Origin: an uncultured Gammaproteobacteria bacterium
GTDB taxonomy: Bacteria > Pseudomonadota > Gammaproteobacteria > Nitrosococcales > Methylophagaceae
DNA: 64,000 nucleotides
Direction of reading: 5' to 3'
Assembly: GCA_905479075.1 (NCBI GenBank)
Contig: CAJQLA010000006.1
Span: forward strand, 62,001 to 126,000
Shown here one piece after another: positions 4,678-20,633 of this stretch. The notes beneath the pieces were generated by a model. It was not told the DNA's origin and ran no database searches. It saw nothing but the letters and a program-made list of their open reading frames with translations. Each line of letters opens with the position of its first letter. Position 1 is the first letter of the stretch. The position numbers and the translations under genes are program-made.

Positions 4678-5070
4678 GTGAGAAAAATCTTTAGCCAGTT
4701 GTTAATTATCTTTATGTGTATGCCTTATTTGGCATGCGCGATGTCTGACTGTGGTCATGAAACTGCTGTTGTTCAATCCGAGGTTCAGCCTTGTGCTGAC
4801 CATGACCAAAGGGCTGATAATAAAGAGCAGGCATCAGCAGACGTTATGTTTTTGCTTGATTGTGCAGGTGTTGATGCACAGTTAATTGCTCACGATTCTA
4901 CAGTCTTAAAAGTAGACTTTAAAAACAATGATGCTGCGAGTGCAAATCATGAGTCTGAGCTGTTTAAAGCGCAGACTTTTGTTGAAACAACTGTCTGTCG
5001 TCCCGTTTGGGATGCCAGCACGCATTTCCCCCCTGATATTATCTTAACAACACAGCGTTTTCGCCTGTAA
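4678..5070 (+). CDS. Small secreted Cys/Asp/His-containing protein upstream of the copper oxidase
   Basis: 130 residues from GTG 4678; chosen because it gives a good signal peptide (RKIFSQLLIIFMCMPYLACA, cleavage near CA-MSD). The next in-frame ATG would destroy it. The mature part has several Cys (SDCGHE, QPCADHD, LLDCAG, TTVCRP) and ends PPDIILTTQRFRL. Small proteins with such an ILTTQR-like end next to copA are, as I recall, common in proteobacterial copper loci. Function unknown; a periplasmic copper-binding or folding partner is an inference. A possible -10 (TTAGAT, 4665-4670) is so close to the GTG that the mRNA may be leaderless. Confidence 0.6.
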   Translation: MRKIFSQLLIIFMCMPYLACAMSDCGHETAVVQSEVQPCADHDQRADNKEQASADVMFLLDCAGVDAQLIAHDSTVLKVDFKNNDAASANHESELFKAQTFVETTVCRPVWDASTHFPPDIILTTQRFRL

Positions 5071-5140: not shown

Positions 5141-7171
5141 ATGAATAAAATAATTAAATCATCAGTTTTTATCGTGGGAATGATGCTGTTAAGCCCTTCG
5201 ATAGTCTTGGCTAAAGTGGTCGAGTATCAGTTTAATGTCGATTATAAAACCGTTAATTTTACGGGGAAGTCGGTGCAAGGGCTTTCAGTAGGTGGGACAA
5301 TTCCTGCGCCGACAATTGAAGCGACTGTCGGTGATACGCTAAGGGTGACATTTCATAATAAACTGGATGTTGAGACATCTGTGCATTGGCACGGCATTTT
5401 ATTACCCCAAGATCAAGATGGTGTGCCTTATTTGACATCGTCACCCATTAAACCAGGGGGCTCGCATACATATGAGTATCCGGTGATCCATCATGGCACT
5501 TATTGGTATCACTCGCACACGGGGTTGCAGGAGCAGCGCGGTATTTATGGCGCTCTTGTTTTTCATCCGAAACAGGCTGAAAAGGTTGAGACTGATCACG
5601 ATGTGGTGGTGGTCTTGTCAGACTGGATAGATGAAAACCCGAATCAAGTGATGCATAATCTTAAAAAGTCAGATGATTATTATGCTTTAGAAAAGGATAG
5701 TGTTCAGTCTTGGTTTAAAGTGATAAGTCATGGCACAGAAGCGATTAATAATCGTTTGAAAGGGGCATGGATGCGTATGGGGCCAATGGATATCTCTGAT
5801 GTGGCTTATGATACTTTTTTAGCCAATGGTGAACGGCGATATGATCTCCCCAATATCAAAGCGGGCGAGACGGTTCGGTTGCGACTAGTTAATGCTGGAG
5901 CATCGAGTTATTTCAATGTGGCTTATGCTGGTGGGCCGATGACAGTTGTTGCGGCAGATGGGGTGGATGTGGTGCCTTTTGATACCGAGCAACAATACAT
6001 GGCGGTTGCTGAAACCTTTGATGTGATTGTGGCAGTGCCAAGTAATGGGGCTTATGAGTTTAGGGCAACATCTGAAGATGCTACGGGCTACAGTAGTGTT
6101 GTTTTGGGCGAAGGTAAGCTGGTGTCCGCCCCAACAATAGCTAAGCCAGCGTTGTTAATGATGGATCATGCCAAGCATGAGATGCCCGAGATGGATCATG
6201 CGGCAATGGGTCATAAAATGGATATAGATATGTCGTCGATACAGCCGACTGGCTATGACTCATTACGCTCACTGACACCGACAAACTTTAATAAGAACAA
6301 TCCAAAAAGAACGGTTAATTTAGCGCTAACAGGTGATATGGAGCGTTATGCATGGTCATTTGATAATAAGGTGCTCAGTGAAAGTGGTCAGATCCTAATT
6401 CGTCGAGGTGAAACCGTTCAGTTTGTTTTGGAAAATAAAACCATGATGGCGCACCCGATTCATCTTCATGGCCATTTTTTCCGCGTGTTAAATGGTCAGG
6501 GCGATTATTCACCTCTAAAACATACCGTGAGTGTGCCTGCCTTGCAGACGGTCACCATTGAGTTTTTGGCAAATGAAGAGAAAGACTGGTTTTTCCATTG
6601 CCATAATCTTTATCACATGAAAACGGGTATGGCACGGGTTGTCAGTTATGAACAAACTTCACTGCTTAATCAAGATATGTTATCCAAGATGTTTTCCGAG
6701 CAGGATTGGTTTTATTTTGCTGATGTGGCGGTGCAAAGCCATTTTCTAGCGGGTGAACTACGTGCTGAGAACACGCGTAATGCATTTAATGTTGAGTATG
6801 ACTGGAATTATGAAGGTGCATATGAGGTTGAAGCGACCTATGAGCGTAGCTTTAATCGCTTTTTTGAACTTTATGCGGGTGCACAGTTTGAGAAAGAAGA
6901 AGATGAGGTTGAAAACAAGGTCATTGCGGGCGCACATTATCTGCTGCCACTATTGATCGAGGCCGATCTGCGCATAGATAGTGAAGGTGATGCCCGCTTG
7001 GGGCTTGGTAGTGACATACAGTTAAGTGATCGTCTGTCATTTGAGTGGGATGCCAATACCGATCACGAATATCGCCTGGAACTAGATTACGAGGTGAATA
7101 AAATGGTTTCCTTCATTGGTAGCCACGATGATCAATATGGATGGGGCCTTGGTATTAAAGCGGCATTTTAA
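5141..7171 (+). CDS. copA: CopA-type multicopper oxidase with a C-terminal beta-barrel-like extension
   Basis: 676 residues from ATG 5141, preceded by GGAAGGAAG; a longer in-frame start at 5105 would bury the signal peptide (about residues 1-25, Sec type, no twin arginine). Three cupredoxin domains carry the copper ligands: HWHG (82-85), YHSH (123-126), HPIHLHGH (438-445) and HCHNLYH (486-492) with Cys487 as type-1 ligand. A Met/His-rich insert (MDHAKHEMPEMDHAAMGHKM) is typical of CopA and PcoA. Residues about 520-676 are not oxidase. They show alternating polar/hydrophobic strands ending in Phe, like a small outer-membrane barrel. Probable periplasmic cuprous oxidase for copper tolerance. 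Confidence 0.88.
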   Translation: MNKIIKSSVFIVGMMLLSPSIVLAKVVEYQFNVDYKTVNFTGKSVQGLSVGGTIPAPTIEATVGDTLRVTFHNKLDVETSVHWHGILLPQDQDGVPYLTSSPIKPGGSHTYEYPVIHHGTYWYHSHTGLQEQRGIYGALVFHPKQAEKVETDHDVVVVLSDWIDENPNQVMHNLKKSDDYYALEKDSVQSWFKVISHGTEAINNRLKGAWMRMGPMDISDVAYDTFLANGERRYDLPNIKAGETVRLRLVNAGASSYFNVAYAGGPMTVVAADGVDVVPFDTEQQYMAVAETFDVIVAVPSNGAYEFRATSEDATGYSSVVLGEGKLVSAPTIAKPALLMMDHAKHEMPEMDHAAMGHKMDIDMSSIQPTGYDSLRSLTPTNFNKNNPKRTVNLALTGDMERYAWSFDNKVLSESGQILIRRGETVQFVLENKTMMAHPIHLHGHFFRVLNGQGDYSPLKHTVSVPALQTVTIEFLANEEKDWFFHCHNLYHMKTGMARVVSYEQTSLLNQDMLSKMFSEQDWFYFADVAVQSHFLAGELRAENTRNAFNVEYDWNYEGAYEVEATYERSFNRFFELYAGAQFEKEEDEVENKVIAGAHYLLPLLIEADLRIDSEGDARLGLGSDIQLSDRLSFEWDANTDHEYRLELDYEVNKMVSFIGSHDDQYGWGLGIKAAF

Positions 7172-7307: not shown

Positions 7308-7871
7308 ATGAAAGGCATTATTTTTACGAGCTTTATCGACTTAGTAGAAGAGAAGTTTGGCTTGGAAATGCTTGAAGACGTCATCTCAAGCGCCAAGCTG
7401 CCAAATAATGGTGCTTATACCGCCGTAGGCACTTACGACCATTCTCAACTGATCGAGATGGTGATGATCTTGAGTGAAAAATCAGCCATCCCGGCAACGG
7501 ATTTAGTGAAAGCCTTCGGTGAGCACTTATTTGGCGTTTTGTCTAAAACTTACCCGGACTTGCTCGAGGGCCTTGATTCGGCTTTTGAGCTTTTAGAGAA
7601 CGTGGATGGCTTTATCCATATTGAAGTCCTGAAGCTCTACCCAGATGCAAAACCACCAAGTTTTGATTGTCGTCGAATTGATGATAATCAATTAGAAATG
7701 ATTTATCACTCACCTCGTGGCATGGGCGATGTTGCAGAAGGTTTAATTTTGGGGTGTGCAGCCTACTACAGCCAAAATATTGAGGTTCAGCGTGAAAAGA
7801 AGGAGCCTGATAATGGAGAAACTGAGCGGTTTTTGCTGACGCTAAGATCGGGGGCAAAACCAAATGAGTGA
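7308..7871 (+). CDS. H-NOX heme nitric-oxide-binding sensor protein
   Basis: 187 residues beginning MKGIIFTSFIDLVEEKFG, the standard H-NOX opening. The proximal heme ligand is His104 in FIHIEVLKLYPDA. The heme-propionate clamp YxSxR is present as Y133-H-S135-P-R137. There is no tail beyond the domain, so it is a stand-alone sensor acting in trans, as in Shewanella and Vibrio, where NO-bound H-NOX changes kinase activity. The distal pocket cannot be judged from sequence alone, but facultative-anaerobe H-NOX proteins bind NO selectively. It overlaps the kinase gene by eight bases, so the partner is nearly certain. Cytoplasmic. Confidence 0.93.
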   Translation: MKGIIFTSFIDLVEEKFGLEMLEDVISSAKLPNNGAYTAVGTYDHSQLIEMVMILSEKSAIPATDLVKAFGEHLFGVLSKTYPDLLEGLDSAFELLENVDGFIHIEVLKLYPDAKPPSFDCRRIDDNQLEMIYHSPRGMGDVAEGLILGCAAYYSQNIEVQREKKEPDNGETERFLLTLRSGAKPNE

Positions 7872-8877
7872 GTTAGCACTGATGAGAAAAAAGATCAGCA
7901 GGGAGCGTGAAGCAAGAAAAGCTGCAGAGCAGTTGTTGGAGGATAAAAGCAGAGAACTTTATTTGATCAATAAAGAGCTGGAAAAGCGTAGCAATAAAGT
8001 CACTGAACAAAAAGAAAAGCTGCAGAAAAAAGTTGATGAATTGCAATTAACTCGCTCCCAATTAGTTCAATCAGAAAAAATGGCGGCTATTGGTCAACTG
8101 GCTGCTGGTATTGCTCACGAAATTAATAACCCCATCGGGTACATTTTGTGTAATTTGAGCTCGCTGAATGAGTATCTTGATGATCTTCAACAAGTGCTAA
8201 AGAAGCAGACAGAGTGCATGGGGAATATGTACGTTACTAAGGGTGCAGAGAAGCAGGCGATTCGAGAGTTAGCTGAACTAAAAAAGCAGGTTGGTTTAGC
8301 GTTTATTTTATCCGATATCGATCAACTTATGAAAGATTGTATGGAAGGTGCCCATCGTGTAAAAGACATCATTGCTGAGCTGTCTGAGTTTTCATCTATA
8401 CGAAATCCAGGGCTTACCAGAGAAGATATTAATGAGCTTATCGAAAAGGCAATCAAAGTTGCTTGGAACGAGCTTAAATACAAAGCAGAGGTAGAAAAGC
8501 AGTTTTCTGAACTCCCTTTGGTTTTATGCAATGGTGGCAAGTTAGTGCAGGTTTTTCTCAATTTATTAGTTAATGCTGTTCAGTCGGTTGAGTCCAGAGG
8601 GGTGATTACGCTACGGAGTAGACATGAAGGGTCACTCATTTGGATCGAGTTCCAAGATACAGGTTCTGGCATGCCAGAGCATATTGTTAGCAAGATTTTT
8701 GATCCGTTTTTTACGACTAAAGAAGTGGGTAAGGGGACAGGGCTAGGTCTCCATGTGGTGCAAAGTGTCATTGATAGCCATGGAGGAAAAATTGCCGTTT
8801 CGAGCAAAGTAGGTAAAGGAACGCTTTTTAGGATAACACTGCCTGTCGATGGGGTGCTTGGCATGGAGTCAGACTAA
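7864..8877 (+). CDS. Soluble sensor histidine kinase, H-NOX partner
   Basis: 337 residues without membrane segments. Residues 1-70 are a charged coiled coil (repeated Glu/Lys/Arg), followed by H-box GQLAAGIAHEINNPIGYI with phospho-acceptor His85. The N-box NLLVNAVQS is near residue 230, DTGSGMP near 263 and GKGTGLGLHVVQSV near 290. It has no sensory domain of its own, so input must come from the H-NOX protein encoded in an overlapping frame just upstream. By analogy with HnoK, NO-bound H-NOX is expected to inhibit autophosphorylation. The two downstream genes both start with receiver domains and are the likely phosphate acceptors. Confidence 0.92.
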   Translation: MSELALMRKKISREREARKAAEQLLEDKSRELYLINKELEKRSNKVTEQKEKLQKKVDELQLTRSQLVQSEKMAAIGQLAAGIAHEINNPIGYILCNLSSLNEYLDDLQQVLKKQTECMGNMYVTKGAEKQAIRELAELKKQVGLAFILSDIDQLMKDCMEGAHRVKDIIAELSEFSSIRNPGLTREDINELIEKAIKVAWNELKYKAEVEKQFSELPLVLCNGGKLVQVFLNLLVNAVQSVESRGVITLRSRHEGSLIWIEFQDTGSGMPEHIVSKIFDPFFTTKEVGKGTGLGLHVVQSVIDSHGGKIAVSSKVGKGTLFRITLPVDGVLGMESD

Positions 8878-8900
8878 TAATGGGTAAGGGCAGCTGAGTA

Positions 8901-10205
8901 ATGACAGATAATCAAATAAATTCCAAAGATCAGACGGTGTTATTTGTTGATGATGAGAAAGCCATTTTACAGTCGCTCAATCGAGCTTGTCGCAATACGG
9001 GATGGCGTATTCTCACTGCAACAAGTGGTCGATCGGGGTTAGAGTTGTTAGGCAAAGAGCAAGTAGATTTGATTGTTTCTGATATGCGAATGCCAGAAAT
9101 GGATGGTGCTGAGTTTTTGGAAAAATCGAAGGAGGCCTCACCTGAGTCTGTACGTGTTTTGTTAACGGGTTTTTCGGATATTGCCTCGACAATAGCGGCA
9201 ATTAACAAAGGCAAAATTTTTAGCTATATTACCAAGCCTTGGGACAATGACGAGTTAAAAAACACCTTAAAACAAGCAATGCATGTCAAGCTGTTAGAGA
9301 GTGAGCGGCAGAGGTTAGAGCTGTTGACTCAACAACAAAATCAAGAACTACAGGATTTAAATGCTGGCTTAGAAGAAAAAGTTGCTATAAGAACACGTGC
9401 TTTACAGTTAACGCATCAAAAATTAAAGCAGTCCTATAATAACTCTGTAGAAGTGTTTGCTAGTTTATTAGAAAGGCGCAGCGAAAACACATCAGGCCAT
9501 GGCCGTCGAGTGGCAGCTATTTGTCAGAAAATGTGTAATGCATTAGAACTTGACGCCGAAACAGGTGAGCAGGTTTATTTTGCTGCGTTATTACATGATA
9601 TTGGTAAAATTGCCTTGCCAGATCAGTTGATTGATGTCGCTTATGAAAAGATGACGAGAAAGCAGCAAGTCATATATGAAATGCATAGTAAAATTGGAGA
9701 GTCGACCTTATTGGCTATTGAATACTTGAATGAAGCGGCTTCTTACATCAGGCATCATCATGAAAGTAAAGATGGCAAGGGCTTTCCAGACCAGCTCCGC
9801 GATGGCGAAATCCCGTTTGGCGCCCAACTCATTGGTTTAGCGAGTTATTATGATGAGTTAGCATCAGGGCTATATGGCAGTGAGCCTTTGCTAGAAGATG
9901 AACTTGATAGGGCATTGCAAGCGAAAGCGGGCAATAGATTTGATGAACAGCTAGTGTTAGCGTTTCTTGAGCAGTTGCATCAAGGTAATTTGTCTGAGAA
10001 TAAAGCGGCGGATAGGCAGCTTACAATAGGAGACTTAAAGCCAGGAATGGTGTTGTCTAGAGACGTTTATACCCCTGATGGTAGAATGATTTTGTCGCGA
10101 AATAGGGAGTTGACTGAGGGTGTTATTCTCAAACTTAGAATTTTTCAGCAAGAAACAGATGGACTTCTGCAGCTATATGTTTTTAATGATGAGTTAAAAC
10201 GGTAA
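8901..10205 (+). CDS. Response regulator with HD-GYP c-di-GMP phosphodiesterase domain
   Basis: 434 residues. An N-terminal receiver (TVLFVDDEKAI; phospho-acceptor Asp61 in SDMRMP; conserved Lys in TKPW) is joined through a coiled coil (about 130-170) to an HD-GYP domain. Metal ligands include the HD pair at 232-233 in LLHDIGK and the HHHES block. The signature GYP reads GFP (294-296) in DGKGFPDQL. HD-GYP enzymes hydrolyse c-di-GMP to pGpG or GMP; the Tyr-to-Phe change is mild, so activity is likely but not proven. It resembles Shewanella HnoD, which lacks activity and acts as a regulator, so either role is possible. It lies 23 bases after the kinase, in the same operon. Confidence 0.88.
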   Translation: MTDNQINSKDQTVLFVDDEKAILQSLNRACRNTGWRILTATSGRSGLELLGKEQVDLIVSDMRMPEMDGAEFLEKSKEASPESVRVLLTGFSDIASTIAAINKGKIFSYITKPWDNDELKNTLKQAMHVKLLESERQRLELLTQQQNQELQDLNAGLEEKVAIRTRALQLTHQKLKQSYNNSVEVFASLLERRSENTSGHGRRVAAICQKMCNALELDAETGEQVYFAALLHDIGKIALPDQLIDVAYEKMTRKQQVIYEMHSKIGESTLLAIEYLNEAASYIRHHHESKDGKGFPDQLRDGEIPFGAQLIGLASYYDELASGLYGSEPLLEDELDRALQAKAGNRFDEQLVLAFLEQLHQGNLSENKAADRQLTIGDLKPGMVLSRDVYTPDGRMILSRNRELTEGVILKLRIFQQETDGLLQLYVFNDELKR

Positions 10206-10216
10206 GGGTAGAAACT

Positions 10217-11599
10217 GTGCAGCCAACTCTTTTAATCGTTGATGATGACCCTGAAATTATTTCTTCACTTCTTCGATGCCTGCATCGCTTGGGGTTAAAC
10301 CTTGTCCACTACACATCACCAGAACAGGCCCTTGAATACATCGAGAGTCACCGACCGGACTTAGTCATTTCTGATCAACATATGCCGGGTATGCCGGGCA
10401 GTGAAATGCTGAAGAGAATGAAGGAAATTTGGCCAGATGTACATAATATTTTATTGAGTTCTTACCATGACTTTGATGTGGTAGCCGAGGCGTTTAACCA
10501 GAAAATTATCGAGCAATATATAAGCAAACCTTGGGATAATGATGAGCTCAGGTTTGTTGTCAGGAAAACATTGAAAGCTCAGGCATCAGATGTGAGTGAT
10601 CACAACAAGCAGGCTAAGTTAGTAAGTATTCATGGCATGTTGGGTGAAGATGAGTCGATGCATAGAGTCTTTGATCGTATTAGCAAGGCAGCAACAGCCA
10701 ATATACCCATCTTTATTACTGGTGAAACAGGAACAGGGAAAGAGCTTGTCGCACGATCTTGTCATTTAGAAAGCTTTAGAAAATCACACCCTTTTATAGC
10801 CGTTAATTGTGCCAACTTTACGGAAAATTTAATGGAGTCACAGCTGTTTGGCCATAAAAAAGGGGCCTTCACTGGGGCGACGGGTAATCAATTTGGTTTG
10901 TTTGCAACAGCAGGCGAAGGTACGTTGTTTTTGGATGAGGTCACAACCTTGCCGCTGCCATTACAAGCAAAGTTATTACGTGTAATACAAGAAAGAGAGT
11001 ATGCGCCATTAGGCAGCCATGAAATGCAGCCATTCCATGCGCAAATAGTAACAGCTTCATCAACACAGCTTACAGATGCCGTTGATAGAGGGGAGTTTCG
11101 AGAGGACTTATATTATCGTTTGAATGTTCTTTCCATCGAGTTGCCCCCATTAAGGAAAAGGGGCCAAGACATAGTGTTACTTGCAGGCTATTTTTTGAAG
11201 GAGTTTAATGCTCTTGAGAATAAGTCCTTCGTTGATTTTAGTGATGAGGCTAAATCGTTATTGATGGCTTTTCGTTGGCCCGGCAATGTCAGGCAGCTAG
11301 AGAACTTATTGCACAGTATTGTCATACTGAATGATGGAACACAAATTACATCAGAAGTTTTAAATCAAGCATTACTGGGTGAACGAAACCGCCTTTCGGA
11401 CAGAAATCCTTCTTCAGATAATACGCAACATAATGAAACATTAAATGATAATTTTGCCGAAATAAGGCCCTTATGGCAAGTTGAAAAAGAAACCATAGAG
11501 CGGGCAATAACACTGTGTAAAGGCAATATTCCTAAAGCAGCAGCTTTACTTGATGTGAGCGCATCAACTATATACAGAAAACATAAAAAGTGGGAGTAA
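10217..11599 (+). CDS. NtrC-family sigma54 activator (REC-AAA+-Fis HTH)
   Basis: 460 residues from GTG 10217, 11 bases after the HD-GYP gene. The receiver has Asp53 in SDQHMP and Lys in SKPW. The AAA+ domain is intact: Walker A GETGTGKE (169-176), sigma54-contacting GAFTGA (216-221), Walker B TLFLDEV, and the arginine-finger region FREDLYYRLNVL. The C-terminal Fis helix-turn-helix reads NIPKAAALLDVSASTIYRK. It should therefore be a functional enhancer-binding protein phosphorylated by the H-NOX kinase. The divergent sigma54 promoters at 17412-17655, 6 kb away, are the only alginate-side candidates in the window and make attractive targets. Confidence 0.92.
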   Translation: MQPTLLIVDDDPEIISSLLRCLHRLGLNLVHYTSPEQALEYIESHRPDLVISDQHMPGMPGSEMLKRMKEIWPDVHNILLSSYHDFDVVAEAFNQKIIEQYISKPWDNDELRFVVRKTLKAQASDVSDHNKQAKLVSIHGMLGEDESMHRVFDRISKAATANIPIFITGETGTGKELVARSCHLESFRKSHPFIAVNCANFTENLMESQLFGHKKGAFTGATGNQFGLFATAGEGTLFLDEVTTLPLPLQAKLLRVIQEREYAPLGSHEMQPFHAQIVTASSTQLTDAVDRGEFREDLYYRLNVLSIELPPLRKRGQDIVLLAGYFLKEFNALENKSFVDFSDEAKSLLMAFRWPGNVRQLENLLHSIVILNDGTQITSEVLNQALLGERNRLSDRNPSSDNTQHNETLNDNFAEIRPLWQVEKETIERAITLCKGNIPKAAALLDVSASTIYRKHKKWE

Positions 11600-12238: not shown

Positions 12239-14089
12239 TTATCCGACTACGACTGATAAATCTTCTAGCCCAAAACCAGAGAAGTTCTCTAATACAACGA
12301 AGGCTGTATTGGCATAATTATTACCACTGCCATCACGATCGATATAAAGTGTCGTGCTGGTACCATCGTCGATTAGACTTAGCCATTCACTTTGACCTGT
12401 TTGAGCTAAGCTGTTTGAGACATCAAATTCCAAGATGTCTTCGATTAATGAAAAGTCGCTAATCTGATCTAGATCATTGGCGAAATCTTTTGCTCTCCAG
12501 AAAAAGGTGTCAGCACCCGCACCACCCGTTAGCAAGTCGTTACCCATGCCTCCACGAATGAAGTCGTTGCCTTGTCCGCCGTTAAGTTCATTGTCACGTT
12601 TGTCTCCACGAAACCAGTCATCATGATTTGACCCAATAGCATTCTCTATCGAGAGTAGTGTGTCTGAGTCGCCTTCTGTAGAACGGTTTTTATGAATATC
12701 AACACGTACACTGCTATCTGCATTCTGATAACTGACAGTGTCGTTACCGCTACCACCATTAACAGTATCTCTGCCATTACCTGTGAAGAATAAATCGTCA
12801 CCTGATCCGCCATCGAGGATGTCCATACCAGCACCACCTATTAGGGTGTCGCTGCCTGAACCACCTTCGAGTGTGTCATGACCTGAGCCACCATCCAAGG
12901 TGTCGTCATGCGAGCCGCCAATTAGTAGATCGTTACCTGAGCCACCGTCAACAATATCGTTCCCTGTCCCACCTGTTAAGATGTCGTTACCTGAGCCACC
13001 ATATAAATGGTCACCGCCTGATCCCCCGTAAATTTTATCGTGGCCTTTGTTACCGTAGGCTGTGTCTGTACCTGACCCACCAAATATTTCGTCATAACCA
13101 TCGTTGCCGAACAATTGATCACTCCCACTGCGGCCATGTATTTCATCGGCTCCTGTACCACCATAAATAATATCGTTTTCTGAGCTGGTTACATCGCCAG
13201 TGTTGTTTGTGTTATCTGTACCTACAACGTTGTTGTCAGTGTCTGATCCGTTGTCATTATTGCTGACATTAGGGTCAAGTACTTTGGCATTGCTGGTGCC
13301 AATGTCGACAGAAAAAACAGCATCATCAAAATCCTTATCACCCCCGTTGTAGAGATCTTCAAAACCTAGGGTGATTTCTCCGGCATCGGTATTTAGCAAT
13401 CCTACGGTATGTGGAATGCCATCAGGATTGAGGCTGTAATCAGTGTCACCAACCCCTGCCGCAGTATGGTATTTGTGAAGCTGTAGTTGTGTTGCCATCT
13501 CATTTTCAGCAATATGCCAAAGGCTTGGGTTAGTACTATTTATGTTGGCAGCTGTACCATCACTTTCTCTGAAAGCGAGGGTGCCAGAAGACAGATCGAT
13601 ATTGCTGTAACCGCTGTTAATGCTATAGCCATTTGAGATAATGAAAAACCCTAACTGATCTCCTGCTTGCAGGGATAAATTACTTTCACTGACACCGGCA
13701 ATAAGGTTACCACCTGATCCCGATAAACTGGCATTAGGAAAATGGATTTGAACATCATAAATAGTGCCAGTATTATCGACTTTATAACTACCTAAAGTAT
13801 TGCGGTAACCAGCAGTTTCACCTTCAAAAATCACCTTGCCTTGGTAGTCATTAGCAATAGTTAATTGTGGAAGATCAATATATGACGGCCCACCGCCACC
13901 ATAAAGAATATCTTGTCCTCGCTGTCCGTACAGTGTGTCATCACCTGAACCACCCCAGGCTTTATCATGGCCGTTACGTGCATAGACAGTATCATCGCCT
14001 GCTCGCCCAGAAAAGATTTCATGGGCACTACCACCACTCAAGGTGTCGTTTGCTTGTGTGCCGATAATAGGTTTAATTGCGGTACTCAT
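12239..14089 (-). CDS. RTX-repeat protein with DUF4114-like domain, probable type I secretion substrate
   Basis: 616 residues. It has a short N-terminal RTX block (about 15-65, [15 protein letters not shown] type) and then a beta-rich domain. That domain holds [19 protein letters not shown] near residue 250, the hallmark of DUF4114 calcium-binding modules. A Asn/Asp-rich linker is followed by a long RTX block (about 300-540) and an end typical of type I secretion targets (DQISDFS, ending [16 protein letters not shown]). There is no Sec signal and no ABC exporter nearby. It follows alg8 by 18 bases, so it is co-transcribed with polymer synthesis genes. It may be a matrix protein or adhesin. 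It has no epimerase A-module as in Azotobacter AlgE. Confidence 0.85.
12510..13175 (-). repeat. Tandem RTX nonapeptide repeats (main block)
   Basis: About two dozen 27-base units encoding GGSGxDxLx-type calcium-binding nonapeptides; on the plus strand the recurring string is CCTGAGCCACC and variants. Degenerate at DNA level, conserved at protein level. It could look like a CRISPR or minisatellite to automated tools but is coding. Confidence 0.75.
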
Positions 14090-14107
14090 TGGTCTCTCCT
14101 TTGTAAA

Positions 14108-15700
14108 TTAACTTGATGCCAAAAATGCGGTCACGGATTGCCACGAAGGTGGCATTAGAACGGATGTATAAAGTGCGACACCAAATATCAGGGCGAAAAC
14201 CCAAACAGTGGTGACATACGTTGCCATCCAGTTTCGTAGTTGCTCAGTCCAGCTTTCATTAAAGCCAGAGGATTGATCGCCTCGATTTGTCCAGCGCTGT
14301 TTCGATAGCCGGAAAATACAGTAGACCTTCACAGATGCATTAAGCAATTGATTGAAATAAAGGATCCAAGGAAACCACATGTAAACCTGTTCACAGTAGC
14401 GATACAGAAAGAGTGAAAGCGCCATTCGTGAGATGGCTATCCAGAGGAAATAAGAAAGAATATAAGTTGGCTCTATGAGTAAACTTACATTGAAAGCAAC
14501 GATGGGGCTGACCAGCATAGTCCACATAGCGATACGCTGATCGAGTACACACCACCAGATAAAAAAGCCGACTTTTCGTGGGCCAAGTTTTAATGCACGA
14601 GCACCATTTCTGAGCATATTGCCTGACCAGCGCCGGAAGTTTTGAGTCATTCTTTCAATACCCGATCCTTCAACTTCTTCGACTGTGTAAACTAGAGCAT
14701 CTGGCACGTATAACATTTTGGCATCTTGTTTTAACATGTAATACCAGGTGCTTTTATCATCGCCACTAAGGAAACGGAATTTACCCCATAACCAATGTTC
14801 TAAATGGTCCGATTCAAGTATTCGGATGAATTCGTGGCGAGTAAGGTGGTTGGCTCTAAAGACCGACATACGCCCAGTCAAAGTGAGCACTTTTTGGGAG
14901 AGTGAATGGGACTGCATGGCAATGCGCCGTTGGGCAAAACGCATGGTGAGCCAAGTTTGCATCCACTTAGGCCCAAAGCACAGCACGTCTTCATCTGTTG
15001 TCACTGCTTGAAGTTTGGGGTCACCAGCAAACAACGGTAAGCATTTTTCAAGGATGTCAGGAGCGAGAATGGCATCGCCATCCATAAAAACAATCATGTC
15101 ATCAGGATGAATGCCTCGTCTTGACATGGCACGAAGTACTAGGCCTATCGCTAATCGTTTACCTGGTTGGTTTTGGCGAACCATAATAAATTCGAGATCT
15201 AAATCTTGAGCATATTGGCGAAGGTAATTACTGATTATTTTTTCATCGTAACTATCTCCTGAACCTAGCCAAAGTGTTGCTTTCATCCCACTTGATCGGA
15301 CTTCTCTACAAATACTTTGTATAACGCGTTCTGTAGTATCTCGACGTTCGAGATAGGTGGTCATCATGAAATGGACATGACTAGGTCGCCAACCTTTATG
15401 CCAAATGACATTGGCTTTTTGTCTAAGTTTTGGGAAGACTTTGTGTTGGTAGAGTTCTGAGCGAACGACGTGTACAGACCACCAGGAATAGCGCCAGATC
15501 CCTAAGACACCAAGAATAATTGTAAAGCGCTTTAATTCATCATCCCAGATATTATTGGGTATTTGTGTCGCGGCTAGAAAGCAAAAACCAAAATAAAGGA
15601 ATAGCTTATAGGCAGAGAGAAATGTCCATTTCTTAGCTTTCTCAATGACGGGATCGCCACTGACTAATGACGTAGGCTTAAATTGAGAATCCACTGTCAT
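14108..15700 (-). CDS. alg8: Alg8-like processive family-2 glycosyltransferase
   Basis: 530 residues from ATG 15700, which overlaps the end of alg44 by 23 bases; a TTG six bases earlier is less likely. N-terminal membrane helices are followed by the cytosolic GT-A domain with FMDGDAI (DxD), SGDDKSTWYYML and the acceptor-site motif NFRRWSGNMLRNG (QxxRW-like), then further helices to the C-terminus. Alg8 polymerises mannuronate from GDP-mannuronate at the inner membrane and requires Alg44. The neighbours (PilZ-Alg44, AlgD, AlgA, AlgC) support a GDP-mannuronate-type substrate, although cellulose- and hyaluronan-like synthases share these motifs. Confidence 0.83.
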   Translation of the reverse strand: MTVDSQFKPTSLVSGDPVIEKAKKWTFLSAYKLFLYFGFCFLAATQIPNNIWDDELKRFTIILGVLGIWRYSWWSVHVVRSELYQHKVFPKLRQKANVIWHKGWRPSHVHFMMTTYLERRDTTERVIQSICREVRSSGMKATLWLGSGDSYDEKIISNYLRQYAQDLDLEFIMVRQNQPGKRLAIGLVLRAMSRRGIHPDDMIVFMDGDAILAPDILEKCLPLFAGDPKLQAVTTDEDVLCFGPKWMQTWLTMRFAQRRIAMQSHSLSQKVLTLTGRMSVFRANHLTRHEFIRILESDHLEHWLWGKFRFLSGDDKSTWYYMLKQDAKMLYVPDALVYTVEEVEGSGIERMTQNFRRWSGNMLRNGARALKLGPRKVGFFIWWCVLDQRIAMWTMLVSPIVAFNVSLLIEPTYILSYFLWIAISRMALSLFLYRYCEQVYMWFPWILYFNQLLNASVKVYCIFRLSKQRWTNRGDQSSGFNESWTEQLRNWMATYVTTVWVFALIFGVALYTSVLMPPSWQSVTAFLASS

Positions 15701-17351
15701 TCTCAATTTGTTGGTTATCTGAAGGAGCAGGGTCGCTATAACCGCTATTTACTTCATCCCTAGTATGCGATTTAAATGAACGAATGAAGTCACCAAACGT
15801 CCCTGTAGCAAGACTAGGAAAAACAATGATAGCGGGCAAGCCGGGCTTATATTTGAGGCGTATTTGCTCTTTGCTCAAATTGATAAACGCTAATGTGACT
15901 TTCGCTGTTCGCTCTTCACTGGCTCTCCAGCTGTACCGGCTTTCTCTCTCATGTAAAAAGCCTTCTGTACGATCAACGGCGATGACTTTACCAACTACAA
16001 GGCTGTCGAGAGATGGGAAATAAATACGAGCGCGTTGATAGAGCTCTACGCCAATAACTTCATCTTGAGTGAGATAAACATCCACTAGGCGTTGTTCATC
16101 TCGCTCAAATAAGGCGATAGTTTCTCCACGCTTGGTACTGCTGCCATTCGATTTGACTACTTGTATGATTCGGCCTTGACTCGAGGCGTGCACAGTTAAG
16201 CTTTCTCTCCGCTGGTATAAAGCAAGTAATTCCTGAGTGGTATGCGTGACTTCCTGCTTTAATCGATTAACCTCAGCTTTGAGTTCTTTTACTTGTCCTT
16301 CAAAACGTTCACCAGTGAAATAACGACCATTACGAACGCCTCTCAGGGCATCTTGCTGTTTGCCTAAAGCGACTTTTGCAAGCTTTAACTCACCAGAGAG
16401 TGATGTTTGCAGGCGTATGGCTTCATCAAGCTGTTTTTTGGAGACCGCGCCAGAATCAACGAGTTGATAATGTCGGCTCACATCTTTCTGTGCCAGACGT
16501 GCTTGCGCGGTGAGTGATTCAACTAAGATCCGTGCCTGTTGAATACTCTTTTCAACGAAACTGTGGTAATCGATAAGTTTTTCTTGTTCGAGGGCCAGTT
16601 CTTCACGGCGAGCTTCTAATAACGACCTGTCACGTTCAATACTAATTTGTGCTAAAGCAATTTGTTCCTCAATTTTGGCATCTTGAATTTGTATAAGAGC
16701 CGTACCTTGGGGTACAAGGGTATCTATGGTGACAGCCACTTTCTGGATACGGCCATCGGTGGTTGAAAAAATGCGTTCGATAGGTGCTGAAACAACACCA
16801 GACTCTACTTCCAAACTGAAAAAGTTGGCATATAAAGTAAAGGTGATGTAAACGAATAAGCCTAAACCAGCTGAAAAATAAAGCCCGCTCATTAGAATAG
16901 TTTTAGTTTTCCAGCGTGTTAGAGGCACTTCACCCTCAGGGCTCGGATCAGGAGCAGTTGAGACAGGTGTCACAGGAGAATCGATACGCAAAATGGTATC
17001 TGCAACAGGTGTCATTGAACCTCGAACAAGCTCTTCTATAAAGTGTGAAAGTAACTCTAATTGGCGTTCTGATAAATCAGAAAACTGAGCAGCTAGTTGC
17101 TCTGATTCCGAGTAAACAAAAACAATTTTAGCGGTGCCTTGGAAAGTAATGTCAAAGCCTTGGAACGGCAATTTAAAATGGTATTCAATTGTTTTACCTG
17201 GTGTTAGATCTGTACGTTGCCAATTTTCGAGACGAAACCCACCGAGACTCCAATCAACGGCTTCATAAGTGATGTCATCGACACGAATACCTAAAGGTGC
17301 TTGTACTCGATGGTGTCTTCTTTGACAGGGTTTCTCTCTTGTTATTTTCAT
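15678..17351 (-). CDS. alg44: Alg44-like c-di-GMP receptor / membrane-fusion co-polymerase
   Basis: 557 residues from ATG 17351. The frame extends to 17387, but the mapped sigma54 promoter would leave only about 14 bases there, against about 50 for 17351. The N-terminal PilZ domain has the c-di-GMP motifs RRHHR (RxxxR) and DWSLGG (D/NxSxxG). It is followed by one transmembrane helix (ILMSGLYFSAGLGLFVYI) and a periplasmic HlyD-like part with a long coiled coil and beta-barrel. In Pseudomonas, Alg44 binding of c-di-GMP switches on Alg8. It heads the leftward operon alg44-alg8-RTX. Confidence 0.83.
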   Translation of the reverse strand: MKITREKPCQRRHHRVQAPLGIRVDDITYEAVDWSLGGFRLENWQRTDLTPGKTIEYHFKLPFQGFDITFQGTAKIVFVYSESEQLAAQFSDLSERQLELLSHFIEELVRGSMTPVADTILRIDSPVTPVSTAPDPSPEGEVPLTRWKTKTILMSGLYFSAGLGLFVYITFTLYANFFSLEVESGVVSAPIERIFSTTDGRIQKVAVTIDTLVPQGTALIQIQDAKIEEQIALAQISIERDRSLLEARREELALEQEKLIDYHSFVEKSIQQARILVESLTAQARLAQKDVSRHYQLVDSGAVSKKQLDEAIRLQTSLSGELKLAKVALGKQQDALRGVRNGRYFTGERFEGQVKELKAEVNRLKQEVTHTTQELLALYQRRESLTVHASSQGRIIQVVKSNGSSTKRGETIALFERDEQRLVDVYLTQDEVIGVELYQRARIYFPSLDSLVVGKVIAVDRTEGFLHERESRYSWRASEERTAKVTLAFINLSKEQIRLKYKPGLPAIIVFPSLATGTFGDFIRSFKSHTRDEVNSGYSDPAPSDNQQIENDSGFSI

Positions 17352-17411
17352 TGTTCTGTCTCTACAGAAAAAATTATAGGGTTGCATACATATCTTTTAG
17401 ATCTTTGTTAA

Positions 17412-17427
17412 CGCAATCAGCATGCCA
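17412..17427 (-). promoter_or_regulatory. Sigma54 (-24/-12) promoter for alg44-alg8-RTX
   Basis: On the minus strand TGGCAT-N5-TTGCG runs from 17427 to 17412, with the invariant GG and GC exactly ten bases apart. Transcription would start near 17401, 50 bases before the alg44 ATG. It matches the consensus TGGCAC-N5-TTGCW at all key positions and mirrors the promoter of the divergent operon. Confidence 0.75.
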
Positions 17428-17512
17428 GCAGCAGCTAAGTTTCCCTCTAAAGCTTGATACACGGTCGTTTAGCAATATTTATAAGGCCAACAAGGCATCT
17501 GTTTTTCAACGC

Positions 17513-17553
17513 TTTTCGCAAAACCGTTTGCATTTTGCAAAACAATTTGCGAA
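17513..17553. promoter_or_regulatory. Putative shared enhancer (UAS) between divergent sigma54 promoters
   Basis: A cluster of TTTGC/GCAAA half-sites: outer arms TTCGCAAA (17515-17522) and TTTGCGAA (17546-17553) are exact reverse complements. Between them lie CGTTTGC (17525-17531 region) and the ten-base palindrome TTTTGCAAAA (17533-17542). The centre (about 17534) is 107 bases from one -24 element and 106 from the other, a normal enhancer distance for NtrC-type activators. Confidence 0.6.
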
Positions 17554-17639
17554 TTCATGGAGAGTTTGAGTGCTAGTTTTATGCGAGGTGTTCGTTTAAG
17601 TTATTGAATTATATTGACAATATGGGAGTTTCCCAGTTA

Positions 17640-17655
17640 TGGCATGGCCGTTGCG
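17640..17655 (+). promoter_or_regulatory. Sigma54 (-24/-12) promoter for algD-algA-algC
   Basis: TGGCAT (17640-17645), five bases, TTGCG (17651-17655); GG and GC are separated by exactly ten bases. The predicted start is near 17666, giving a 54-base leader to the algD ATG at 17720. Its -24 and -12 blocks are identical to those of the opposite promoter. Confidence 0.78.
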
Positions 17656-17719
17656 ATAAAAGCTACAGAGTGTGCAAGCATTCACAAATTATTTTGCAAA
17701 TGTCATAGAGGACAGAGAA

Positions 17720-19156
17720 ATGTTTAATAAAAACAGATTAAATCCAGAGGATACTTTTATTGAGTCTGAACCTAGAGCTAATGTCGAAAAATTAACATTA
17801 CCTATGCTTGTTAAAGGAAGGGATTCAAAGAGCATACAAGATGCTAAAACGGACGAAAAACCTAGCCTAAGTATTCTTGGTTTAGGCTATGTTGGTGCCG
17901 TATCTACAGCCTGCTTTTCAGATAGAGGTCATGATGTTATTGGTGTCGATCCTGATGAGGAAAAAGTAGCAACATTAAATTTAGGTGAATCGCCCATCGT
18001 AGAAGAGGGTTTAGGTGACCTGCTATTAAAAGGTGTTAAAAAAGGCAACCTAAAAGCAATTTCTGACACAGTTGTAGCTGTAAAACAAACAGATGTGACT
18101 TTTGTGAGCGTTGGAACACCAACAGATGCTGATGGTGTTTGCCAGTTAGGTTATTTAAAAACGGCTTCTGAGCAAATTGGTGAGGCTTTGCGGTCTAAAG
18201 ACGGATATCACTTAATTGTTTATCGCAGTACGGTCCCACCAAAAACTACCCGTGACATCATGATACCGATTCTTGAAAAATTGTCTGGTAAACAAAGTGG
18301 TAAAGACTTTGGTGTGTGTTTCAACCCAGAGTTTTTACGTGAAAGTACTGCAATAAAAGATTTTTATTCGCCACCTAAAACAGTGATTGGTGCCATTGAT
18401 GAACGCAGTGGTGCCTATGCAGCAAAACTTTATGAAGGCATTGAAGGTGAGTTAATTCAAACCAGTATCGAAGCCGCTGAATTTGTGAAATATATCGACA
18501 ATACTTGGCATGCACTAAAGGTTGCCTTTGGTAATGAGGTAGGCCGTTTATGTCAGTCTACCGGGGTTGATGGCCATGATGTCATGGATATATTTGTTAA
18601 AGATACCAAACTGAATCTATCGCCTTATTATTTAAAACCAGGTTTTGCATTTGGTGGTTCTTGTCTTCCAAAGGATACCCGTGGGATTACCCATATGGCA
18701 GAGCAACAAGGTATCGATATTCCATTAATTAACAATATTATTGCGAGTAATGATCAGCATATTGCACATGCTTTAAAACTGGTTAAAAAAGCCAATGTAA
18801 ATCGAGTAGGCATCGTTGGTATGACCTTTAAACCTGGTACGGATGATCTGCGTGAAAGTCCTTCGGTCGAGTTAATGCAACGTTTGCATGAATGTGGTCA
18901 TGAGCTGACTTATTACGATCCAAACGTTAATCCAGAACGCATGCTGCGAGCTGGGCTGAGTATGGACTTAAGCCACAGCGGTTGCCTTGACATTTTTTTG
19001 TTAATACGCAAAACAGACTTATTGATTGTTACTCATAAAAGTGCTGATGCTCGGAGAATCGCCAGGTTTGCTAAACAACATATCCCAGTGATCGATTTGG
19101 TGGGTTTAGATGATGACCTCAAAGGAACAGACAATTATCAAGGTATTTGCTGGTAG
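17720..19156 (+). CDS. algD: GDP-mannose 6-dehydrogenase
   Basis: 478 residues from ATG 17720, with AGAGGA seven bases upstream; an earlier in-frame GTG (17672) would lie about six bases from the predicted transcript start. The NAD-binding motif LGLGYVGAVSTACFSDRGHD and SPIVEEGLGDLL match AlgD. VGTPTDADG follows, and the catalytic Cys is in GGSCLPKDTRG. It oxidises GDP-mannose to GDP-mannuronate, the committed step of alginate synthesis. The oddity is an extra leader of about 48 residues, polar and with no signal peptide, before a Rossmann fold that normally begins at residue 1-3. First gene of algD-algA-algC. Confidence 0.88.
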   Translation: MFNKNRLNPEDTFIESEPRANVEKLTLPMLVKGRDSKSIQDAKTDEKPSLSILGLGYVGAVSTACFSDRGHDVIGVDPDEEKVATLNLGESPIVEEGLGDLLLKGVKKGNLKAISDTVVAVKQTDVTFVSVGTPTDADGVCQLGYLKTASEQIGEALRSKDGYHLIVYRSTVPPKTTRDIMIPILEKLSGKQSGKDFGVCFNPEFLRESTAIKDFYSPPKTVIGAIDERSGAYAAKLYEGIEGELIQTSIEAAEFVKYIDNTWHALKVAFGNEVGRLCQSTGVDGHDVMDIFVKDTKLNLSPYYLKPGFAFGGSCLPKDTRGITHMAEQQGIDIPLINNIIASNDQHIAHALKLVKKANVNRVGIVGMTFKPGTDDLRESPSVELMQRLHECGHELTYYDPNVNPERMLRAGLSMDLSHSGCLDIFLLIRKTDLLIVTHKSADARRIARFAKQHIPVIDLVGLDDDLKGTDNYQGICW

Positions 19157-19214
19157 AAAAGCCAAGCAATTTTATTTGGTGATTTTAAGTGAAGGATTAA
19201 TGGAGGATAGGACA

Positions 19215-20633
19215 ATGATTAATACAGTGATTAATGTAGTTCTCTCGGGTGGTAGTGGGACACGTTTATGGCCAATGTCTAGGAAACACCATCCTAAGCA
19301 GTTGCTGAAATTGAATGGTGACGACTCTATGCTACAACAGACGATAAGGCGAGCATGCCAGGGTAACGGCCCTATAGTCATCTGTAATGAGGAGCAGCGC
19401 TTTATGATCCATCGTCAACTACAAGAAATTAATTGTAATGGATCGATGATTTTAGAGCCCGTTGCGAGGAATACAGCACCCGCTATTGCGATAGCAGCTA
19501 TGCAAGCGCTTAAACAAGCCGATGATCCCGTGTTGGTGATTTTACCTGCAGATCATCAAATTGATGATGAGCTAGCATTGCAAAAGGCCCATGAGCTGGC
19601 TATTCAGCATGCGTTAAAAGGTAAGCTAGTGACGTTTGGAATCCAGCCTAAAGCTGCTGAAACAGGCTTTGGCTATATTCGTGTAGATGAGGCTGTGGAT
19701 GATAATGGGGCGGCGGTTATGGAGTTTACAGAAAAGCCTGATCTGGAAACGGCTCAAGAATTCTTACAGCAAGGTGATTATTTTTGGAATACCGGCATGT
19801 TTGTGTTCAAGGCTAGTGTCTATTTGGCTGAATTGGCTAAGCAAAACCCTGAGATGTTGGCTTGCTGTGAGCAGGCGTTTAAACAAGGCATAGAAGAAGG
19901 GCGCGCACTGCTTTTAGATAAGGCTGCTTTTGGACAATGTCCTGATGATTCTATTGATTATGCGGTTATGGAACATGCCAAAAATGTATGGCTGGTGCCA
20001 CTGCGTTCAGAGTGGAATGATCTGGGAAATTGGTCTGCATTATGGGACATAGCAGACAAGGATGAGCACAACAATGTTGAAAGGGGTGATGTGTTATCTG
20101 AGGATTGTTCAGGCAGTTTATTTTACAGTGACGATAGGTTGATAGCGGCGATTGGTCTAGATGATTTGGTTGTCGTAGATACCAAAGACGCGGTGTTAAT
20201 CGCGCCTAAACATCGGGTGCAGGAAGTTAAAAAGCTGGTATCTAAATTAGAGCAGCAGGGACGAACGGAACATGTCAATCATCGTGAGGTGGTAAGGCCA
20301 TGGGGCAGTTATGACTCAATTGACCAAGGGCCACGTTATCAGGTTAAACACATTGAAGTTAGCCCAGGAGAATCCCTATCGCTACAAATGCATCATCATC
20401 GAGCAGAGCATTGGATAGTGGTCAGTGGCACAGCATTAGTACAAAGAAATGATGAAGAAATGTTGGTGTCAGAAAATGAGTCTGTTTATATCTCTATTGG
20501 TGAAAAGCATCGCTTATCTAATCCAGGGAAATTACCTTTACAGTTAATCGAAGTACAAAGTGGCTGTTATTTGGGCGAGGATGACATTGTTCGGTATAGC
20601 GATATTTATGATCGTGTGGAAAATGAGAATTAG
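19215..20633 (+). CDS. algA: Mannose-1-phosphate guanylyltransferase / mannose-6-phosphate isomerase
   Basis: 472 residues from ATG 19215, with GGAGG eight bases upstream; longer in-frame starts overlap algD. The N-terminal nucleotidyltransferase has VVLSGGSGTRLWPMSRKHHP (pyrophosphorylase signature) and FTEKPD. The C-terminal cupin isomerase domain has RPWGSYDSID and HHHRAEHWIVVSGTA, supplying metal ligands. The bifunctional enzyme makes mannose-6-P from fructose-6-P and GDP-mannose from mannose-1-P, so with algC and algD it completes GDP-mannuronate supply. It could also feed other mannose polymers. Confidence 0.93.
   Translation: MINTVINVVLSGGSGTRLWPMSRKHHPKQLLKLNGDDSMLQQTIRRACQGNGPIVICNEEQRFMIHRQLQEINCNGSMILEPVARNTAPAIAIAAMQALKQADDPVLVILPADHQIDDELALQKAHELAIQHALKGKLVTFGIQPKAAETGFGYIRVDEAVDDNGAAVMEFTEKPDLETAQEFLQQGDYFWNTGMFVFKASVYLAELAKQNPEMLACCEQAFKQGIEEGRALLLDKAAFGQCPDDSIDYAVMEHAKNVWLVPLRSEWNDLGNWSALWDIADKDEHNNVERGDVLSEDCSGSLFYSDDRLIAAIGLDDLVVVDTKDAVLIAPKHRVQEVKKLVSKLEQQGRTEHVNHREVVRPWGSYDSIDQGPRYQVKHIEVSPGESLSLQMHHHRAEHWIVVSGTALVQRNDEEMLVSENESVYISIGEKHRLSNPGKLPLQLIEVQSGCYLGEDDIVRYSDIYDRVENEN

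Follow-up and report, generated by a model that had tools for sequence, protein, structure and literature searches.

A single gene in the analysed window, a stretch of DNA of 64,000 nucleotides, joins a multicopper oxidase to a predicted CopB-like outer-membrane barrel, and we consider it probable that this gene encodes a one-chain PcoA-PcoB (CopA-CopB) unit acting at the outer membrane. The reading frame opens with the ATG at 5141, closes with the stop codon at 7169-7171 and contains no internal stops. The features of the gene, and the gene directly upstream of it, are as follows:

4678 to 5070, plus strand: small secreted protein bearing Cys and His, 130 aa, directly upstream of the fusion.
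5141 to 7171, plus strand: fused multicopper oxidase and CopB-like outer-membrane barrel, 676 aa, a single open reading frame.
5141 to 5212, plus strand: Sec-type signal sequence, residues 1-24 (MNKI...VLA), lacking a twin arginine (sequence, motif count).
5213 to 6652, plus strand: three-domain multicopper oxidase, residues 25-504 (PF07732, PF00394 and PF07731 over cut-off; motifs).
6158 to 6250, plus strand: Met/His-rich segment, residues 340-370.
6653 to 6721, plus strand: linker of about 23 aa, residues 505-527, with no His (sequence; the domain model begins with low pLDDT).
6722 to 7168, plus strand: predicted 12-strand barrel, residues 528-676 (AlphaFold2, Foldseek, CopB profile, two-faced strands).

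All four copper-ligand motifs are present in the oxidase part (HWHG at 82, HSH at 124, HPIHLHGH at 438 and HCHNLYH at 486-492), with M497 at the axial ligand position after the last of them; an earlier note on this DNA had named HCHNLYH as the last copper-ligand motif, as the sequence confirms. The Met/His-rich segment, with 7 Met and 4 His in 31 residues, aligns with similar segments in relatives. The match to NCBIfam TIGR01480 (copper_res_A, CopA/PcoA) reached 408.7 bits, below the cut-off of 478.95, and L097, a separate CopA from within the genus, scored 843.7; the features of the TIGR01480 type, three cupredoxin domains and four copper-ligand motifs, are present in the window protein.

Beyond residue 492 the chain continues for 184 residues, a long tail that the earlier note had recognised but measured at about 175. 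The alternating strands described in it proved real: the 12 predicted strands are two-faced, with a mean face difference of 3.81 on the Kyte-Doolittle scale, and none of 10,000 within-strand residue shuffles (1.74 +- 0.37) reached this value. The best AlphaFold2 model of residues 512-676, one of five built from a 7-row alignment, has 12 strands (pLDDT 72.8, pTM 0.56), and no soluble fold was predicted; the five models were uneven (mean pLDDT 72.8, 49.6, 41.6, 35.2 and 33.0), and the reading of the fold rests on the domain model rather than on the full-length model from 7 rows, with a pLDDT of 37.6. The top Foldseek match in the PDB, and the only one with E <= 0.001, was PcoB (7pge; E 8.8e-4, TMq 0.50). 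VIA-align ranked CymA, OmpG and KdgM best, with 7pge absent among the 50 rows listed, so that an outer-membrane barrel fold is firmer than the identity with PcoB. A PDB sequence search with the domain gave no match at E up to 10.

Profile comparisons point to the same family. The Pfam CopB profile (PF05275) matched the segment alone with E 1.9e-5 and 24.8 bits, just below the gathering cut-off of 27, which is passed by two of four orthologues from the genus (G003, 30.6 bits; G011, 29.0) and failed by the other two (G016, 25.9; G010, 22.9), and only five of the 12 members of family A4 matched at E <= 1. With hhalign, the family profile (12 members) aligned to 12 separate CopB proteins with E 6.7e-5 and a probability of 64%, and to eight Legionella-type barrels with E 3.5e-6 and a probability of 88%. 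A motif picked only once the sequences had been seen, GxxxxxPxx[FIV]xx[DEQ], occurs in 12/12 proteins of the window type, 11/12 CopB and 4/8 Legionella-type barrels, and in 1-2% of shuffled copies. The domain ends in Phe, and the terminal residue is Phe or Tyr in all 12 rows of its own type. That the extension could instead be a soluble beta domain resembling CopB by chance is highly improbable: the weak single-sequence scores and the uneven AlphaFold2 models would fit such a domain, whereas the two-faced strands beyond every shuffle, the aromatic terminal residue and the agreement of several CopB signals (orthologue scores, hhalign, Foldseek and the shared motif) would not. The earlier note had proposed part of a CopB-type barrel; the relation to CopB holds by profile and predicted fold, while the domain, as modelled, looks like a compact but whole 12-strand barrel related to CopB/PcoB. 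Its reading of the protein as a CopA-CopB hybrid is supported by the sequence, the predicted fold and the relatives.

For this probable one-chain unit we infer an outer-membrane location, copper flux and a direction of flux. Sec would export the chain unfolded, and the Bam machinery would insert the barrel into the outer membrane. According to the excerpted text of PMC9210255, PcoB is built of 12 strands, has its termini in the periplasm and encloses an electronegative pore; if both barrel ends face the periplasm here, as in the solved PcoB, the oxidase would be tethered next to the pore on its periplasmic side. The tethered oxidase would turn Cu(I) into Cu(II) in the periplasm, and the acidic pore would pass Cu(II), outward being only somewhat likelier than inward because the direction of copper through PcoB (in or out) is disputed, as is its joint working with PcoA.

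Two other roles for the barrel were weighed. It could be an anchor only, holding the oxidase at the outer membrane with copper conduction lost; its compactness (149 residues, where the CopB profile has 208 positions), its divergence from CopB and the lack of PcoB's His/Met-rich arm would suit this reading, but an acidic residue lies on the more polar face of 11 of the 12 predicted strands and the domain carries 32 Asp/Glu against 12 Lys/Arg, which a bare anchor does not need, and we regard this alternative as rather unlikely. An autotransporter-like protein, in which a C-terminal 12-strand barrel brings the oxidase to the cell surface, would share the gross layout of N-terminal passenger and C-terminal barrel. 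It is very unlikely, given that Pfam at E up to 1 returns CopB and no autotransporter family, that PcoB ranks first in Foldseek, and that the copper setting would suit a periplasmic oxidase. Between oxidase and barrel, residues 503-527 (25 residues) contain no His and two Met, and nothing like the disordered His/Met-rich N-terminal arm of PcoB, which in Caulobacter supports the stability of PcoA according to the excerpts of PMC12509749. By analogy, the covalent link may have made such an arm unnecessary, and would do for the oxidase what the arm does for PcoA, holding and stabilising the partner. With the two parts covalently joined in nature, their stoichiometry is fixed and the membrane side probably is as well, so a single purified chain would allow oxidase activity and copper flux to be assayed side by side.

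The signal sequence of the window protein, called by eye and with its cleavage site inferred, sets it apart from separate CopA proteins. Scoring the pattern RRx[FLMYIV] within the first 110 residues, by pattern match alone rather than with a signal predictor, we found it in 15/15 separate CopA rows and in 2/25 fused rows, both doubtful, the 40 rows being related and not independent cases. By group, the fused rows with the pattern were 0/4 of the window type, 1/8 from Bacteroidota and Fusobacteriota, 0/11 of the Legionella type and 1/2 of the others. In the Pontibacter row the pattern sits within the oxidase, and the annotation of that chain gives no signal; in the L088 row it reads RRRPL and is doubtful. 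The separate oxidases of Stanieria, Sphingomonas and Acetobacter all have it. Left out of the count and of the first tree were two long frames, L083 and L084, and the broken or cut oxidases L077, L079, L092, L093, L094, L095 and L098; among these, a twin arginine occurs in L084 and in the N-terminal pieces of L095 and L098, and not in the N-terminal piece of L077. The long frame in L083 (1079-4189) encodes a twin-arginine oxidase lacking the last HCH motif, followed by a CopB with its own signal-like stretch. Because that motif is missing, L083 looks like a disturbed gene pair and not a working fusion; it is the one case against the rule, and counting it as a fusion would give 3/26. Tat is probably missing from many Bacteroidota. 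The window's genome encodes TatC, so a lack of Tat does not explain the non-Tat signal of the window protein. The likely reason would be that Tat carries folded proteins, while the barrel must reach Bam unfolded. If upheld in wider sampling, the switch of signal would be a simple rule tying the export route to outer-membrane anchoring.

The fusion is conserved at full length in three relatives (L110, L111 and L113; 73-74% identity), and since it recurs in several assemblies a sequencing or assembly artefact was ruled out as its source. The barrel domain was found in 5/59 genomes searched, the window's own included, all of the same genus; of six named loci, five come from Piscirickettsiaceae assemblies and one is named only as uncultured Gammaproteobacteria, which points to Piscirickettsiaceae as the probable family of the window's own genome. 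One Piscirickettsiaceae assembly holds three copies of the fusion (L109, L112 and L114), all cut by contig ends, two of them diverged (42% and 38% in the barrel). A search of 398 genomes from the same phylum with the family profile gave five, again including the window's own, one of which was a weak match (E 6.9e-4) and is probably unrelated. A scan of viral contigs yielded no relative of the fusion. In a census of 29 genomes of the genus, five carry the fusion, 10 a separate CopB (one a fragment), 14 neither and none both, an absence of overlap with a chance probability of 0.098, so that mutual exclusion is not significant.

Among plasmids, the whole protein matches one on pILYOP02 of Ilyobacter polytropus (Fusobacteriota; 49% identity, 97% covered), and the other 19 of the best 20 plasmid records listed belong to Bacteroidota (Hymenobacter, Spirosoma, Fibrella, Mucilaginibacter, Bernardetia and Pontibacter; 40-46% identity over 90-98%), a lineage represented here by plasmids only. 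The barrel is matched by 24 plasmid records, each time within a gene annotated as a multicopper oxidase. Ranked by the oxidase part alone, the best 25 plasmid records come exclusively from Bacteroidota and Fusobacteriota: 24 are the barrel records, and the 25th, Ornithobacterium pOR1, has the barrel in two frames with no annotated gene. Three of the next 35 listed records were sampled (Stanieria, Sphingomonas and Acetobacter), and in all three the oxidase is separate and adjoins a gene annotated as copper resistance protein B. In 7/7 Bacteroidota plasmid copies inspected, the surrounding genes include one named for copper or heavy metals.

In the first of three trees of the oxidase part, the window clade groups with Ilyobacter (99/97) and with the Bacteroidota fusions (100/100), apart from the Tat-type CopA of its own genus. 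Two further trees had outgroups and more rows, L107 being excluded from the second onward and seven near-copies or long rows (LEG_L073, LEG_L074, Flavobacterium, TAT_L099, TAT_L101, TAT_L103 and PSD_L130) from the third. The join to Ilyobacter recurred in both (100/98 and 100/95), whereas that to the Bacteroidota fusions was unresolved in the second and 93/100 in the third. The window protein is most closely related to fused oxidases from Bacteroidota and from a Fusobacteriota plasmid, and the patchy spread together with the tree placement suggests that the fusion was likely transferred laterally. An origin by fusion of copA with copB within the genus itself was considered and, on the trees, dropped.

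A second set of fusions (L069-L081) forms a clade of its own, its named kin being four Legionella records and one Aquicella record; within it, the gene in L077 is in pieces and an intact copy, L076, lies in the same genome. The oxidase-CopB fusions L087 (1371-3815) and L088 (1466-3946), which have a near-canonical CopB barrel, make up a third set, placed beside separate CopA in the second tree and among them in the third. A single clade of all fusions was not rejected in the second tree (p-AU 0.055) and was weakly rejected in the third (0.036). The placement of L087 and L088, which would represent a probable independent fusion, points to more than one fusion event. It is possible, if somewhat doubtful, that fusion occurred repeatedly and that Sec replaced Tat each time because Bam has to receive the barrel unfolded. 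The fused forms would then be oxidases that acquire their copper in the periplasm and are locked 1:1 onto a Cu(II) pore. If so, they would offer a natural test piece for the coupling of oxidation to copper flux.

Around the gene, the small secreted protein at 4678-5070, which had no credible Pfam match, probably belongs to the same operon; its homologues lie directly 5' of the fusion in L110, L111, L113 and L114 (31-62% identity). Promoter- and terminator-like sites around the fusion gene were no more frequent than in shuffles. In the window's genome there is a single CopB-like match, and PF07732 is matched three times. Besides the fusion, the proteins matching PF07732 are L123 and L125 (on contig 17 of G000), which have 320 and 365 aa, too short for CopA, and flank a 239-aa open reading frame bearing CxxCH. 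Downstream, 7308-11599 encodes a Haem-NO-binding (HNOB) protein, a histidine kinase-like frame, a response regulator with an HD domain and an NtrC-like regulator, and looks like an H-NOX signalling operon, the kinase and NtrC-like names being read from the sequence. The stretch at 12239-20633 encodes an RTX-repeat protein, a glycosyltransferase, a PilZ-HlyD protein, a UDPG/GDP-mannose dehydrogenase and a nucleotidyl transferase with a mannose-phosphate isomerase domain, presumably resembling an alginate-type polysaccharide cluster.

Oxidase-barrel fusions are a kind already known and barely studied. In a literature search mostly of journals open without subscription, we recognised no paper on such fusions, or on a switch from Tat to Sec, beyond those cited here. 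Fused PcoA-PcoB proteins in five Legionella species are already in print, according to the excerpts of PMC3548706. These fusions (here L069-L076, L078-L081 and L136 of L. fallonii) likewise combine an oxidase and a CopB-like barrel in one open reading frame and, as in the window protein, have no twin-arginine motif (0/11 rows). They differ in forming a separate clade of the oxidase tree (100/100), in a barrel that is larger and closer to CopB (hhalign E 1.7e-18), and in a mostly longer linker. For the oxidase BZARG_1772 (G2EDV6) of Bizionia argentinensis, the excerpts of PMC11213822 describe residues 611-809 as seemingly porin-like and somewhat similar to PcoB. This too is a single chain with a signal peptide, an oxidase and then a porin-like C-terminus, but it is larger, comes from Bacteroidota and is set beside the window protein by that description only. 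The Ilyobacter polytropus protein WP_013389237.1 agrees with the window protein in domain order and closely in length (49% identity over 97%), but its gene lies on a plasmid from Fusobacteriota, in the neighbourhood of two-component and heavy-metal genes. The separate PcoA/CopA and PcoB/CopB pair, often encoded by adjacent genes, would be expected to have the same two activities; it differs in consisting of two proteins, in the Tat-type motif of CopA (15/15 rows) and in the disordered His/Met-rich arm of PcoB described in the excerpts of PMC12509749. Set against these systems, the window fusion is a little-described type whose other members known here are mostly from another phylum.
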